Shown in pieces: positions 4,346 through 64,000 of a stretch of 64,000 bases of DNA. Below the pieces are notes generated by a model that was given only the letters and a program-made list of their open reading frames with translations, was not told the DNA's origin and did not search any database. The position numbers and the translations under genes are program-made. The stretch lies in the NCBI GenBank assembly GCA_020444245.1, contig JAHLLI010000016.1, forward strand, positions 1 through 64,000. The letters are read 5' to 3'. Position 1 is the first letter of the stretch; each line of letters begins with the position of its first letter. This stretch comes from Actinomycetales bacterium. GTDB lineage: Bacteria; Actinomycetota; Actinomycetes; Actinomycetales; Cellulomonadaceae.

Positions 4346-5202
4346 GGATCCTGCGCACCCGCGCCGAGCTCGCCTCGGCGCTCGCCGACCGGCCGCCGCG
4401 GCGCGCGGTCGTCATGACGATGGGCGCCCTGCACGAGGGGCACCTGGAGCTGGTGCGCACCGCCCGTGCCCGCGCGGACCAGGTGGTCGTGACGATCTTC
4501 GTCAACCCGCTGCAGTTCGGTCCCACCGAGGACCTGGACCGCTACCCCCGTGACCTGGACGGCGACGTGGCCAAGCTCGAGGCGGTCGGTGCCGACCTGG
4601 TGTTCGCGCCGTCGGTCGACGAGGTCTACCCCCGCAGCCCCGTGATCACCGTGGTGGCCGGCCGGATCGGCGAGGTGCTCGAGGGCGCGCACCGCCCCGG
4701 CCACCTGGACGGGGTGCTCACCGTGGTGCTCAAGCTGCTGCACCTGGTGGACCCGGACGTGGCGCTGTTCGGCCAGAAGGACGCCCAGCAGCTCGTCGCC
4801 GTGCGCCGCATGGTGGCCGACCTGGACGTCGGCGTCGAGGTGCTCGGCGTGCCGACCGTGCGCGAGGCCGACGGCCTGGCGATGTCCTCGCGCAACGCCT
4901 ACCTCGCCCCCGACGAACGGGCGGCGGCCCTGGCGCTGTCGCGTGCGTTGGCGGCGGGACGGGTCGCTGCCGACGGTGGTGCGGAGCCCGATGCCGTGCA
5001 CCGGGCTGCCGCCGACGTGCTCGCCGCCGAGGCGCGGGTCGTCCCGGACTACCTGGCGCTCACCGACCCGGAGCTGGCGCCGGTCGGGCCGGGGTACCGT
5101 GGTCCGGCCCTCCTGCTGGTCGCCGGCCGGGTGGGCGCGACGCGGTTGATCGACAACGTGATGCTGGAGCTGACCGGCTCCGCCGAGGACGAGGAGCACT
5201 GA
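4342..5202 (+). CDS. panC: Pantothenate synthetase (pantoate-beta-alanine ligase)
   Basis: Condenses pantoate and beta-alanine with ATP via pantoyl-adenylate, the last step to pantothenate. The 286-residue length is normal. Visible motifs are the nucleotidyl-transferase [10 protein letters not shown] near residues 30-39, [12 protein letters not shown] near 50-61, FGQKDAQQL near 143-151 and the KMSKS-like AMSSRN near 180. It is coupled by ATGA to the upstream DUF2520 gene and by TGATG to panD, so the enzyme and its beta-alanine source are made from one transcript. Confidence 0.97.
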
Positions 5203-5636
5203 TGGCCATCGAGGGCCGTCTGCGCACGATGATGACCGGCAAGATCCACCGGGCGCGGATCACCGAGGCGGACCTGGACTACGTCGGTTCGATCACCGTC
5301 GACGCCGACCTGCTGGCGGCGGCCGACATCCTGCCCGGGGAGCAGGTCGACGTCGTCGACGTCACCAACGGCGCCCGCCTCACCACCTACGCGATCCCCG
5401 GCGAGCCGGGCTCGGGCGTGATGGGGATCAACGGCGCCGCCGCGCACCTCGTGGAGCCGGGCGACCTGGTCATCGTCATCGCCTACGGCACGCTGACCGA
5501 CGCCGCGGCCCGCACCTACACGCCTTCGGTGGTGCACGTCGACGCCGAGAACCGGATCGCGCACGTGGGCGCCGACCCCGGAGAGGCCAGGCCGGGTCTG
5601 GGTACCTCGGCCGTCGCGTTCGAGGGTCACCGGTGA
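5202..5636 (+). CDS. panD: Aspartate 1-decarboxylase proenzyme
   Basis: A pyruvoyl enzyme that makes beta-alanine from L-aspartate for PanC. The self-processing site is visible as [10 protein letters not shown]; cleavage is expected between Gly29 and Ser30, Ser30 becoming the pyruvoyl group. The catalytic-domain signatures MMTGKIHRA and [15 protein letters not shown] are present. The N-terminus is about five residues longer than usual (MAIEG before [12 protein letters not shown]), but the ATG overlaps the panC stop as TGATG, so this start is well supported. The next gene, nadB, also uses aspartate as substrate. Confidence 0.96.
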
Positions 5637-7315
5637 CGCTCGCCCGGCGGCTGGCGGCGCCGTCGCCGGGGTGGACCACCGCTGCCGACGCGATCGTGGT
5701 GGGCTCTGGCGTCGCCGGGCTCACGGCGGCCCTGCGGCTGCGCACCCGGGTGCCTCGGGTCCTGCTGGTCACGAAGGGCCCGCTGTCCTCGGGCTCGACG
5801 GTGTGGGCGCAGGGGGGCATCGCGGCGGCCCTGGACCCCGAGGACAGCCCTGCCGCGCACCTGCACGACACGTTGGTCGCGGGCGTCGGGCTGTGCGACC
5901 GCGCGGCGGTCGAGGTGCTCGTCACCGAGGGCCCCGACCGGGTGCGCGAGCTCATGGCGCTCGGCGCGCGGTTCGACACCGGCCCGGGCGGGGAGATCTC
6001 CCTGACCCGCGAGGGCGGTCACCGCGCGGACCGGATCGCGCACGCCGGCGGGGACGCCACCGGCGCCGAGATCTCCCGGGCGCTGGTCGCGCAGCTCGAG
6101 GCCGTGCGCAACGACCCGGGCATCGAGGTGCTCGAGCAGGCGCTGGTGCTGGACCTGCTCACCGCCGCGCCGGACTCCGACGGGCGGCCGGGCCGCGTGT
6201 GCGGGGTCACCCTGCACGTGATCGGCGAAGGCACCCGCGACGGGGTCGGCGCTGCCCTGGCGCCCGCGGTGATCCTCGCGACCGGCGGCATCGGCCAGGT
6301 CTACCCGTCCTCGACCAACCCGCGGGAGGCCACCGGCGACGGGATGGCGGCCGCGCTGCGCGCCGGGGCGGCGGTTGCGGACGTGGAGTTCGTCCAGTTC
6401 CACCCGACGGTGCTGTGGCTCGGCTCGGGCGTCAAGGGCCAGCTCACCCTGGTGTCGGAGGCGGTGCGCGGCGAGGGCGCCATCCTGCTGGACACCGACG
6501 GCCTGCGCTTCATGCCCGAGGTGCACGAGATGGCCGAGCTGGCCCCGCGTGACGTCGTCGCCCACGCGATCGTGCGGCGGATGGCCGAGACCGGCTCGGA
6601 CCACGTGTTCCTCGACGCCCGGCACCTGGGCGCGGACTTCCTGCGCCGCCGGTTCCCGACCATCGACGAGAGCCTGCGCGCCGAGGGCATCGACCTGACC
6701 ACCGACCTGGTGCCGGTCGCGCCGGCGCAGCACTACCACTCCGGCGGCGTGCTCACCGACCTGGCGGGCCGCTCGACGCTGACCGGCCTGTACGCCGCGG
6801 GCGAGGCCGCCTGCACCGGGGTGCACGGCGCGAACCGGCTGGCGTCCAACTCCCTGCTCGAGGGCCTGGTCTACGCCCACCGGGCCGCCGACGAGGTCGC
6901 GGCCCGGATCGTCGCGGGCGACCTGGTCGCCGACGAGCCGGTCGAGCGCGGTGGGGCTCCGGCGCTGGTCGCTGCCCCGGCGCGGCACCGGATCCAGCGG
7001 ATCGCGGCGTCCGGGCCCGGTGTGATCCGGCGCGCCGAGGGGCTCGAGCAGGCCAGGGAGCGGCTCGCCGCGCTGCCCACCAGGGCGGACCTCGCACCGG
7101 GCGTCGAGGCGACGCCGCAGGTCGCCGAGTGGGAGACCACCAACCTCCACCAGGTGGCGACCCTCCTGACCGAGACCGCCCTGCGGCGGACCGAGAGCCG
7201 CGGCGGGCACTACCGCGAGGACCACCCCGAGCGCGACGAGGCCTGGCGGCTGCGTCAGGTGGTCACCCTCACCCCCGAGGGCGACCTGGACATCGCCCCC
7301 GCCCCCGTCGCCTGA
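5633..7315 (+). CDS. nadB: L-aspartate oxidase
   Basis: FAD enzyme that oxidises L-aspartate to iminoaspartate, the first step of de novo NAD synthesis. The 560-residue protein has the dinucleotide motif [15 protein letters not shown] near residues 22-36, the FAD-contact segment [15 protein letters not shown] near 60-74, the active-site region [15 protein letters not shown] near 361-375 and the C-terminal fumarate-reductase-like helical domain. GTG 5633 overlaps the panD stop (GTGA). In many actinobacteria nadA and nadC adjoin nadB; here nadA is not in the window, and nadC lies 3.4 kb away beyond an island on the other strand. Confidence 0.95.
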
Positions 7316-60187: not shown

Positions 60188-60715
60188 ATGTCCGACCCTG
60201 CTGTGCCCGACGCCGCCCCGGTGGCTGCGTCGCCCCCGAGCCGCTGGGCCGTGGCCCAGCCTTGGGTGTCCACCGTGTCCCGGCTCGTGCTGGGCGTCGT
60301 CCTGGTGTGGGCCGGCGCCGCGAAGGCCGGCGACCTGGCCGCGAGCGTGCGTGCCGTGCGCGCGTTCGAGCTGCTCCCCGAGTGGCTCGCCAAGCCGGTG
60401 GGCTACGGCCTGCCTGCCGTCGAGATCGTCGTCGGGGTGTTGCTGATCGTCGGCCTGCTCACCCGGTATGCCGCGGCCGTCGGTGGCCTGCTGATGCTCG
60501 CCTTCGTCGTCGGCATCGCCGCGGCGTGGGCGCGCGGGCTGTCCATCGACTGCGGTTGCTTCGGCGGCGGCGGCCCGACCGAGCCCGACCTCACCCAGTA
60601 CCCGCTGGAGATCACCCGCGACCTCGCCCTCGCCGCTCTGGCGGCGGTGCTGGTCCGCTGGCCCCGATCACGCTTCTCGCTCGACCAGACCCTCGGCCTC
60701 AACCAGGCCCCCTGA
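60188..60715 (+). CDS. MauE/DoxX-family membrane protein with CxC motif
   Basis: A 175-residue four-helix membrane protein of the MauE/DoxX type (VSRLVLGVVLVWAGAAKAGD near residues 30-49). The conserved DCGCFGGGG has Cys122 and Cys124 in an exposed loop. MauE-like proteins in actinobacteria are often paired with DsbA- or TlpA-like thioredoxins and are thought to exchange disulfides across the membrane. GGAG precedes the ATG. The DsbA-like gene follows after 18 bases. Confidence 0.85.
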   Translation: MSDPAVPDAAPVAASPPSRWAVAQPWVSTVSRLVLGVVLVWAGAAKAGDLAASVRAVRAFELLPEWLAKPVGYGLPAVEIVVGVLLIVGLLTRYAAAVGGLLMLAFVVGIAAAWARGLSIDCGCFGGGGPTEPDLTQYPLEITRDLALAALAAVLVRWPRSRFSLDQTLGLNQAP

Positions 60716-60733: not shown

Positions 60734-61597
60734 ATGCCCTCGAACCAGCCCAGCAAGGCCGATCGCCGCGAACAGGCGAAGGCCGCGGCCGACGCGCTCC
60801 GAGCGAAGCAGGCCCGGGCCGCGGCCCGACAGCGCACCATCGCCATCGTCTCGCTCGTGGTCGGCCTCGTCGTGGTGGTCGCCCTCGTGATGGTGATCCT
60901 CAACAACGGCAAGTCCTCGTCCAACACGGCCACGGCCGACCAGATCACCCCGACCGCGGCGAGCGCGCACGGCGGCTTCGTCTTCGACAAGACCGGCCGG
61001 CTCGACCCACCGTCGGACCAGGGCAGCGGCACGTCCGCGTGGCCGCAGAGCCTGGCCAAGTCCGGCGGCCCGGTCGTGGTGAGCGTCTACTACGACTTCA
61101 TGTGCCCGTGGTGCGGTGAGTTCGAGCGGACCCAGGGTCCGACGCTCGACGCCCTGCTCGCCTCCGGCGCGATCGTCCTGGACTCCCACCCGTTGGCCAT
61201 CCTCGACAGGTACTCCGCCGGCTCGAACTTCTCGACCAGGAGCTCCGCGGCGGCGATCGCGGTGGCCGAGGGCGACCCGTCGCACTACTTCTCCTTCGTC
61301 GAGGCGATGATGGCCACCGACACCCAGCCGAAGGAGAACACCGCCGGCCTGACGAACGCCGAGATCGCCGACGTCGCCAAGGGCGTGGGTGTGACCCAGG
61401 ACGTGCTCGACCAGATCACGTCGGGCGCGTTCACCGACTACGCGGCCAAGGCCACCGACCTCGCCTCGCAGGACCTCGGCCAGCTCAGCACGCCGACGAT
61501 CCTGCTGAACGGCAAGAACCTGACCCAGGACCTCGGGGTCGACTGGACCCAGCAGGGTGCCCTCGCGGCGGCGATCGCGGCCGCCGCCCAGGGCTGA
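60734..61597 (+). CDS. Membrane-anchored DsbA-like thiol-disulfide oxidoreductase
   Basis: A 287-residue protein with a charged cytoplasmic start (KADRREQAKAAADALRAKQAR), one membrane helix (about 35-56), and an extracytoplasmic DsbA/DSBA-like thioredoxin domain (thioredoxin_4 type). The active site YYDFMCPWCGEFE has Cys124 and Cys127; the cis-Pro loop is STPTILLNGK near 250. It probably oxidises or isomerises cysteines of exported proteins, with MauE recycling it. Candidate clients just downstream are the three secreted proteins with two cysteines each. GGAAGGA precedes the ATG. Confidence 0.9.
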   Translation: MPSNQPSKADRREQAKAAADALRAKQARAAARQRTIAIVSLVVGLVVVVALVMVILNNGKSSSNTATADQITPTAASAHGGFVFDKTGRLDPPSDQGSGTSAWPQSLAKSGGPVVVSVYYDFMCPWCGEFERTQGPTLDALLASGAIVLDSHPLAILDRYSAGSNFSTRSSAAAIAVAEGDPSHYFSFVEAMMATDTQPKENTAGLTNAEIADVAKGVGVTQDVLDQITSGAFTDYAAKATDLASQDLGQLSTPTILLNGKNLTQDLGVDWTQQGALAAAIAAAAQG

Positions 61598-62064: not shown

Positions 62065-62472
62065 ATGGCCAAGAACCGCCGCAAGTCTGCTGCCATCGCG
62101 CTCGCCGTCATCGGTATCGCCGGTCTCTCCCTGGCCAGCGCGTCGCAGCTCGACCTCACCGGTGGCACGCTCCAGGCGGGCACCACGGACCTCACCGACT
62201 GCCAGCCGTCCGGCACCCCCGTGGTCGCCGAGATGTCGGCCGGCACGTTCGTCGCCGGTACCGGCTACGAGGCCGGCGACGTGTCGCTGACCGGCATCGC
62301 CGCTGCCTGCACCGGCAAGCAGATCGAGGCCGTCCTGCTCGACGCCGGTGGCAACGCCCTGACCACGTCGGCCTCGGCCGCCATCGGCGGCGCCTCCGCC
62401 ACCGTGTCGGTGCCGGCCGGCATCTCCGCCGGGAGCGTCGAGGGCATCGCGGTCGTCATCTCGGACAACTGA
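62065..62472 (+). CDS. Small secreted protein with SipW-type signal (paralogue 1)
   Basis: A 135-residue protein. Basic start KNRRK, a hydrophobic stretch and the junction ASA-SQL near residues 25-29, then a predicted beta-sandwich of about 105 residues with two cysteines, Cys46 (DCQP) and Cys82 (AAC). The run SQL-x5-GTLQAG-x4-L-x-DCQP recurs in the protein at 63578, so the two are paralogues. The ER-type signal peptidase gene follows after 16 bases, as in SipW-TasA type matrix-fibre or alternate-signal export loci; the resemblance is in organisation and signal, not proven homology. AGAAGGA precedes the ATG. Confidence 0.8.
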   Translation: MAKNRRKSAAIALAVIGIAGLSLASASQLDLTGGTLQAGTTDLTDCQPSGTPVVAEMSAGTFVAGTGYEAGDVSLTGIAAACTGKQIEAVLLDAGGNALTTSASAAIGGASATVSVPAGISAGSVEGIAVVISDN

Positions 62473-62488
62473 TCTCCCCTTCGGGCAC

Positions 62489-63121
62489 GTGATGCACGCC
62501 ACTGAGGTCTCCGTGGCCGGCGCAGCTCTGCTGCGCCGGCTGCGGAGCCATGCCGGTGACGTGCTGTTCCTGGTGGCCGCGCTGGTCGTCGGGTACTTCC
62601 TGTGGCCCACCTCGCTCGGTGGCTGCACGACCCTGACGATCGTGTCCGGTCACTCGATGGAGCCGACCTACTACACCGGCGACCTGGTGGTCTCCCGGTG
62701 CGGCGACTACCAGGTGGGCGACATCGTCGTCTACAACCCGCCGAACGTCGGCACCGCACGCGTGATCCACCGGATCATCGGCGGCGACGGCGCGACCGGT
62801 TGGGTCATGGAGGGCGACAACAACGACTTCATCGACCCGTGGGAGCCGACGGACGACCGGGTGCTCGGCAAGGCCGTGCTCCACCTGCCGAAGGTCGGGC
62901 TGGTGGGCAGCGTCCTGGTCAGCCCGATCACGTGGGTCTCGCTGCTCCTGCTCGCAGCGGCGCTGGTGATCTGGCCCGCCAAGCCCGAGCAGCCGGACGA
63001 CGAGGAGCCCGCCGACTCCGCCGACGCCCCGGCGGACGACTCGGCCCCGCCCGTCGACGCGCCCGAAGCCGCGGTCGCGATGTCGGCCGCGGCCGCGACC
63101 TCCGCGGATCCGCCGGCATGA
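62489..63121 (+). CDS. Signal peptidase I, ER/SipW type (Ser-His)
   Basis: A 210-residue membrane peptidase of the S26B class. One helix (about 24-41), then the catalytic Ser56 in VSGHSMEPTYYTGD. In place of the bacterial catalytic Lys it has His94 in RVIHRIIGGD, the hallmark of archaeal, eukaryotic and SipW-like enzymes; EGDNND near 109-114 carries the conserved Asp. A second helix (about 143-163) and an acidic Asp/Ala/Pro tail follow. It likely cleaves the neighbouring secreted proteins. GTG 62489 and ATG 62492 are both possible; no strong ribosome site. The next gene overlaps by four bases (ATGA). Confidence 0.88.
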   Translation: MMHATEVSVAGAALLRRLRSHAGDVLFLVAALVVGYFLWPTSLGGCTTLTIVSGHSMEPTYYTGDLVVSRCGDYQVGDIVVYNPPNVGTARVIHRIIGGDGATGWVMEGDNNDFIDPWEPTDDRVLGKAVLHLPKVGLVGSVLVSPITWVSLLLLAAALVIWPAKPEQPDDEEPADSADAPADDSAPPVDAPEAAVAMSAAAATSADPPA

Positions 63122-63537
63122 GGGCGGCTCGAGCGGCAGGCGTCGGGGCCCTGGCGGCGGCGCTCGCCCTGGGCGCCGGGCTCGCGCACGCCTCGACGCT
63201 CACCGTCGGTGCGTCGACGCTCGACCTCCGCTCGGCGGGCCCGTGCTCGACGTCGACCGTCGCCCTGTCCCCACAGCCCGGTGACTTCATCTCGTGGCTG
63301 TTCGGTTACACCCAGGTCCGGCTCACGGTGCCGGCCGCCTGCGCCGGAACCTCGCTCAGCGTGACGATCCACGCCACCTCGGGCGGCGCCGCGCTGGCCA
63401 CCGCGAGCGCCACCGACGTCCCGGCCGGGACCCTGACGCTCACGACCTCGGCGACCTACGGCGGAGTGCTCACCGGACGCCCGGCATACTCCGGGGCCGT
63501 GACCTTCGACGGCTGGTCCGTCCCGGCGTCCTTCTGA
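63118..63537 (+). CDS. Small secreted two-cysteine protein (paralogue 2, divergent)
   Basis: A 139-residue protein with a signal sequence (MRAARAAGVGALAAALALGAG broken at LAHAS) and a predicted beta-rich body. Cysteines are Cys43 (GPCSTST) and Cys75 (PAACAG). The start of the mature part, HASTLTVGASTLDL, resembles the SASQL...GTL region of the two other secreted proteins, and the second Cys is again in an Ala-Ala-Cys, so it is probably a distant relative. Translation is coupled to the signal peptidase gene (ATGA). Function unknown; a structural or adaptor subunit of a surface fibre is possible. Confidence 0.72.
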   Translation: MRAARAAGVGALAAALALGAGLAHASTLTVGASTLDLRSAGPCSTSTVALSPQPGDFISWLFGYTQVRLTVPAACAGTSLSVTIHATSGGAALATASATDVPAGTLTLTTSATYGGVLTGRPAYSGAVTFDGWSVPASF

Positions 63538-63577
63538 CCGACCGCTACCCCCCCGCGACGAGATCCCTGGAGCCCCG

Positions 63578-64000
63578 ATGAGCCGCCTGCGACCGTCCCG
63601 GCGCTTCGCCGCCCTGGCGCTCGGGGTGCTCGCGCTCGCCGGCCTCTCGGCGGCCTCGGCCTCGCAGCTGGCGGTGGACGGCGGGACCTTGCAGGCGGGG
63701 GTCGGTACGCTCGCCGACTGCCAGCCGGCCGGCCAGCAGATCGTCGTCTCCCTGACGAGCGCCTTCTCCGCGGGTCAGTACCGCTCCACGGCGGTGCGGT
63801 TCTCCGACGTCGCCGCGGCATGCAGCGGGCTGACCTATCGCACACAGCTGCTCGACGGCTCGGGTGCGCCGATCGACCTCAACGGCGCGGCCGCCGGAAC
63901 CGACCTGAGCGGAGTGGTCGCCCTCACGGGCGGTGCCTTCTCCGTGGCGATCCCGTCCACGCCCTCGGCCGGCATCGGCGAGGCCGTGCTGGTCATCCAC
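63578..64000 (+). CDS. Small secreted protein (paralogue 3), truncated by the window end
   Basis: The first 141 codons of a protein close to that at 62065: basic start SRLRPSRR, hydrophobic stretch, junction ASA-SQL, then GGTLQAG and L-A-DCQP with Cys48 and Cys82 (AAACSG). It continues past base 64000; the C-terminal length and what follows are unknown. ATG 63578 has only a weak ribosome site (GGAG at 63569-63572). Having a paralogue on each side of the peptidase suggests a set of subunits exported by one dedicated enzyme. Confidence 0.75.
   Translation, partial: MSRLRPSRRFAALALGVLALAGLSAASASQLAVDGGTLQAGVGTLADCQPAGQQIVVSLTSAFSAGQYRSTAVRFSDVAAACSGLTYRTQLLDGSGAPIDLNGAAAGTDLSGVVALTGGAFSVAIPSTPSAGIGEAVLVIH

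Follow-up and report, generated by a model that had tools for sequence, protein, structure and literature searches.

What does a signal peptidase do when its gene is enclosed by genes for small exported proteins, and do these proteins together build a structure at the cell surface? This question is raised by the right-hand end of a 64,000-nucleotide stretch of DNA, here called the window, which belongs to a 4.4 Mb assembly of 44 contigs (the window genome). A sequence-only reading of the window had proposed a surface-fibre or coat system there, with one enzyme and three two-cysteine proteins. To our knowledge, most Gram-positive fibres described so far are sortase pili, type IV pili or TasA-type fibres, and among the papers listed by searches of the published literature, with most subscription journals outside their scope, none deals with this gene set.

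The gene set continues beyond the window

The set begins with P1 (62065 to 62472, + strand), a two-cysteine exported protein of 135 residues and the proposed major subunit. The signal peptidase gene follows on the + strand (62489 to 63121, with the start uncertain, at 62489 or 62561), and its stop overlaps by 4 bases with the start of P2 (63118 to 63537, + strand), which encodes 139 residues with two cysteines and has P4 as its best BLAST relative within the locus. P3 (63578 to 64006, + strand) is a paralogue of P1, and its stop codon ends six bases past the window edge at 64000. When the contig was read rightward, P4 was found outside the window after a gap of 8 bases (64015 to 64869; 284 residues, two domains and six cysteines, one of which is the final residue), followed by a GDSL hydrolase gene on the opposite strand, a match to the c-di-GMP-I-GGC riboswitch (RF03167, 65866 to 65941) and P5 (about 66194 to 66604), a further P1-family member with 66.5 bits to the P1 profile. 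The three small exported proteins first described thus exist as P1, P2 and P3, but three is an undercount, because the set goes on with P4 and P5.

The features described inside the window were borne out. The words SASQL, GGTLQAG and DCQP are common to P1 and P3, which align as paralogues at 37% over 116 aa (pairwise E 2e-15); P1 and P2 are weakly alike (pairwise E 0.002). The cysteines are spaced C46-x35-C82 in P1, C43-x31-C75 in P2 and C48-x33-C82 in P3, the second lying in AAC each time.

The peptidase and its neighbours stay together in relatives

Scanning genome contigs with 16 aligned peptidases as query gave 68 loci, and the counted set comprised the window genome and loci L063 to L128, with 60 called peptidase genes bearing the GGC string in 59 loci; eight of the 66 loci (L120, L121 and L123-L128) hold no such peptidase call and lie outside the 60. 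P1 is directly upstream of all 60 called peptidase genes, so the pairing on which the sequence-only reading had staked its proposal is present in relatives. The gene after the peptidase is a P1 or P4 member in 56 of 60; the four exceptions are L100 and L116, where the called genes on the contig end, L068, where a 467-aa call is the peptidase plus further sequence, and L082, where the next gene is P5 after a gap of 944 bases. A four-base overlap between the peptidase and the next gene recurs in 35 of 58. P1 often has several paralogues per locus, L082, L168 and L169 have no called P4, and the P4-type protein of L064 lacks the second domain. We read the pairing of P1 with the peptidase as more than chance, although the records share ancestry and the 60 pairings are not independent events.

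The set occurs in Actinotalea, Cellulomonas, Sanguibacter, Cellulosimicrobium, Flavimobilis and Pengzhenrongella, and further in some Arthrobacter, Diaminobutyricibacter and Propionicimonas. A strong peptidase match (E below 1e-50) was obtained in 22 of 101 genomes of the family, all of which are among the P1-positive genomes (40 of 150). Up to genome G100, five further genomes are P1-positive without a strong peptidase match: in G009 and G100 a looser peptidase adjoins a cysteine-free P1-type gene, in G022 and G026 the P1-type genes lie at a contig start, and in the stretch read of G038, P1, peptidase and P4 are jointly absent while P5 alone remains. In a phylum-wide draw of 396 genomes, P1 relatives were found in nine, the window genome included, and they reach other families of the phylum. 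Of the other eight loci, five (L152, L153, L155, L156 and L157) carry at least one P1-type gene together with an S26B-type gene in the same stretch. No S26B-type gene was found in the remaining three: L151 is a complete contig of 12 kb, and in L154 and L158 the match lies near a contig end. That an ordinary signal peptidase should lie by chance beside unrelated secreted proteins is hardly credible in view of the 60 pairings with their reading-frame overlap, the recurrence of this pairing of families in distant actinobacteria and the joint absence in the stretch read of G038.

A Ser/His signal peptidase of the S26B type

Peptidases of the S26B type are defined by a catalytic pair of Ser and His, not Ser and Lys. 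As claimed from the sequence, Ser56 lies in SGHSMEP and His94 in RVIHRI, and both are invariant in 16 of 16 aligned peptidases (S32 and H70 of the trimmed query, equal to Ser56 and His94 of the 210-aa ORF). The ER/archaeal type is supported by a match to TIGR02228 (64.3 bits, curated cut-off 51.85) and by SEC11A/C as the best PDB matches of the peptidase profile (8e-11); when the P1, P4 and peptidase profiles were searched against solved structures, real matches were obtained for the peptidase only. Against Bacillus SipW (NF046067), it scored 26.2 bits, below the equivalog cut-off of 190. The closest named match is from an Actinotalea species, at 77% identity. The enzyme resembles SEC11 and archaeal signal peptidase I (TIGR02228, MEROPS S26B) in the catalytic pair and the profile match above cut-off, whereas here two more S26 peptidases are kept elsewhere in the genome and this peptidase stays beside one client family.

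P1 and P4 belong to one family

No match above cut-off was found for P1-P5 in Pfam or NCBIfam, the TasA model included. Among 51 P1 and 32 P4, no Pfam family was matched in more than 3 P1 and 2 P4 members, none of them convincing, and P1 had no match to any binding domain. The P1 and P4 profiles align across almost all of P1 (hhalign 98.9%, E 1.3e-17), and judged by this alignment P4 is a P1-type domain joined to a second, four-cysteine domain; the P4 alignment and model exclude a longer form of about 357-374 aa (14 of 46). The unrelated folds that the sequence-only reading had named as evidence to the contrary did not come out, because P1 and P4, the two proteins modelled, share one family.

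The P1 model has a confident all-beta core of six strands; its ten-residue blocks from 51 on have a mean pLDDT of 89-96, and residues 23-41 are unplaced with pLDDT under 50, a low value that is common at the N-terminus of any secreted protein. Conservation of the post-signal segment (29-45) equals that of the core (1.74 versus 1.70 bits), and that of the signal peptide is higher (2.17-2.50 bits). In P4, the signal peptide does not stand above the domains in conservation (1.56 versus 1.57 and 1.67 bits); the cleavage-site box is more conserved (1.94 bits) and residues 34-46 are less so (1.20 bits). When five distant partner proteins were tested by position weights for the N-terminal segment of P1/P4, their scores were reached by 22 to 115 of 360 controls with the P1 block and by 4 to 41 of 360 with the P4 block.

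Compared with solved structures by Foldseek, neither model had a match at E <= 0.001, and no TasA chain was among the 50 of 870 P1 matches listed. The P1 core is probably Ig-like, a term that we use because its weak matches (E 0.57 at best) are to FN3 and antibody domains; the weak matches of P4 are lectin- or CBM-like (1gzt, prob 0.94; 8wae, prob 0.69). Viral fusion-protein matches of the P1 profile (E 0.57 and worse) were taken as chance. A reading of the P4 second domain as the cellulose-binding CBM2 was considered and is not claimed, because there is no Pfam CBM match in the 32 P4 or in the P4 of the window genome.

Cysteines and the supply of disulfides

Two cysteines are present in 58 of the 60 P1 directly upstream of a peptidase; the exceptions, in L106 and L119, are short calls of 69 and 87 aa, respectively. 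These are unfiltered counts; the alignment of 51 P1 (A2) was prefiltered for exactly two cysteines, so its invariance is not evidence. Just upstream of P1 in the window genome lie a gene for a MauE/DoxX-type membrane protein (60188 to 60715, + strand; MauE 1.3e-30) and, adjoining it, a gene for a DsbA-like thioredoxin-fold protein (60734 to 61597, + strand; Thioredoxin_4 1.5e-11), which could be the suppliers of the disulfides of the operon. Some relatives (L043 and L044) have similar genes upstream, in L046 such genes are not directly upstream, and L061 and L062 encode a CxxC protein at a greater distance upstream.

These cysteines and the adjoining DsbA- and MauE-like genes would also suit a coat, sheath or S-layer-like array of two-cysteine proteins, in which disulfides might cross-link one subunit to another. 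We consider such an array improbable, as a single disulfide inside one small domain is the simpler reading, and as 8 of 70 enzyme-client pairs have no cysteine in either partner (58 have at least two cysteines in the peptidase and two in P1, and 4 are off-diagonal). Because P1-type proteins beside related peptidases can be cysteine-free, the wider system needs no disulfide. The cysteine-free peptidases adjoin cysteine-free P1-type proteins in L072, L088, L102 and L123-L127, and L072, L088 and L102 hold the cysteine-bearing and the cysteine-free kind in one locus. A cysteine link between enzyme and client was rejected as functional evidence, given that the sequences are related and the P1 calls of L106 and L119 are short.

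Shared modules with TasA-type sets and adhesion domains

In L109 and L123, between the kinase and UDG genes that border the set, there are also peptidase modules whose clients carry a SipW-type leader (TSAxWxDDAWF), and from this leader we take these to be TasA-type modules; against the NCBIfam TasA model, the sole score of their proteins was 12.1 bits (cut-off 450). In one protein of L123 (L123_8), the second domain of P4 comes straight after a SipW-type leader (45% to L102_12 over 123 aa, E 3e-31; against the profile of P4, 85%). In L165_0 of genome G026, a P4-type protein with an inserted CBM4_9 domain (1.1e-19; one protein, from a genome of the same family) is fused to a SipW-type leader that matches L109_14 at 50% over 34 aa (E 1e-4). 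In these domain swaps we see the strongest sign that the P1 set and the TasA-type sets may do the same kind of job. Homology of P1 to four TasA-type clients was not found, as hhalign with a shallow profile gave 13% with the signal peptide alone aligned; because this test failed, the set is kept apart from the TasA family though it is laid out like TasA/SipW. The TasA-type module of L123 also contains a protein with a sortase-like LAxTG tail (5089 to 5643; NF058582 22.4 bits, below the cut-off of 27).

Among the distant loci, two have a secreted partner with CBM96 (2.5e-20 and 3.9e-28), and one has a protein with a P5-like start (1.6e-8) plus RTX repeats (6.9e-24). Such CBM4_9, CBM96 and RTX partners, together with the lectin- and CBM-like Foldseek matches of P4 and a P1 model that matches no fibre fold, could also be explained by dedicated soluble or wall-bound carbohydrate-binding or adhesion proteins that the peptidase matures and that do not polymerise. 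This explanation is unlikely but deserves serious attention: P1 itself matches no binding domain and is often present in several copies, and its post-signal segment is conserved though outside the predicted core, points that speak against a set of non-polymeric adhesins. The fibre system proposed by the sequence-only reading holds up in its S26B enzyme, its stable pairing, its continuation past the window and the SipW/TasA modules in the neighbourhood of relatives, but not in a structural match of the P1 or P4 model or in detectable homology of P1 to the four TasA-type clients tested.

A proposed mechanism and its relation to known fibres

We propose, at what we judge an even chance, that the products of the operon P1-peptidase-P2-P3-P4 build a fibre or matrix at the cell surface that is TasA-like and has a minor subunit for adhesion. 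First, the S26B peptidase would cleave the related exported proteins P1-P4 at a common alanine-rich box (ASA-A/S-x-L). P1, with P3, would then be the major subunit, a small all-beta protein with a probably Ig-like core and one predicted disulfide. Its N-terminal post-signal segment (AAQLNL..G.L.AG), free in the monomer, may act as a donor strand that fits into the neighbouring subunit and so drive polymerisation, a step suggested by analogy with TasA fibres, which use an N-terminal donor strand (PMC9674648), and with archaeal threads, in which such a strand and a conserved post-signal segment are likewise described (PMC9715654). P4, and P2 as well, might act as a minor or capping subunit, presumably at the tip, and the four-cysteine second domain of P4 (with CBM4_9, CBM96 or RTX domains in counterparts from single related loci) may bind a surface, for example a plant polysaccharide.

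Compared with TapA-SipW-TasA of Bacillus subtilis and sipW-calY of B. cereus, the common features are a small operon, a SipW-type S26B peptidase, a major and a minor exported client, and beta-rich clients with a flexible N-terminus (here from the P1 model). The stop/start overlap of the peptidase and minor-client genes is also shared, as the TapA and SipW genes overlap in this way (PMC10151520). However, the clients here are of about 100 residues with two cysteines, belong to no Pfam or NCBIfam family and have no detectable homology to the four TasA-type clients tested, the minor subunit bears a four-cysteine or CBM domain, and the peptidase falls short of the SipW cut-off. The archaeal threads (Saci_0406) and archaeal bundling pili have in common with the present set small beta-rich, Sec-exported subunits with a conserved post-signal segment, and they, like the present set, would assemble without an usher; no sequence or fold match to them was found, and the threads are glycosylated and isopeptide-linked (PMC9715654). 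The set described here has its own neighbouring peptidase. We know of no such dedicated peptidase for the archaeal threads and bundling pili.

More tentatively, and with real doubt, the set may represent a new class of surface fibre, patchily distributed over the Actinomycetota, with Ig-like subunits, its own S26B peptidase, an N-terminal donor strand, neither usher nor sortase, and exchangeable carbohydrate-binding tips, which would have evolved apart from TasA and yet be interchangeable with TasA-type modules in the same locus. If the fibre reading is true, there would be a second case in which to ask whether donor-strand assembly arises where small beta-sandwich proteins go together with an S26B peptidase. 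Cellulomonas and its relatives are degraders of plant cell walls (PMC4780727), and the separate peptidase and subunit set, the carbohydrate-binding partners and the c-di-GMP-type switch would then provide a concrete gene set for how Cellulomonas-type cells may hold plant material.

Regulatory features around the locus

The riboswitch match of the window genome scored 64.2 bits with RF03167 (gathering threshold 59) and 68.6 bits with RF01051 (threshold 35). An Rfam scan of 25 loci gave a c-di-GMP-I or -GGC match in 10, always 202-283 bases ahead of the called P5 start: the window genome, L063-L068 and L070 (every one of the seven Actinotalea records scanned), L076 and L083, with RF01051 as the best riboswitch match in L066 and L067. 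It was not found in the other 15, including L091 with the same gene order. In Actinotalea-like loci, P5 would thus be a family member under separate control through a c-di-GMP-I-type riboswitch in its mRNA leader, and the second messenger might turn its expression either up or down.

Promoter and terminator scans gave none, against 0.1 and 0.5 in shuffles. By a word-and-length rule, with Pfam domains checked in L123, 37 of 57 loci have a histidine-kinase-like gene upstream of P1, and 27 of these 37 also have a divergent regulator-sized gene. In L124 (8424 to 13340), two genes come after a cysteine-free P1-type/peptidase module: one is response-regulator-like, and the other encodes a membrane protein whose GGDEF-like match is very weak and below cut-off (E 0.045). 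The window genome contains five c-di-GMP-I matches in all, two of which (G000:C22:166089-166162 and G000:C8:187509-187584; L161 and L162) precede genes of 76 aa that we presume to resemble BldC regulators.
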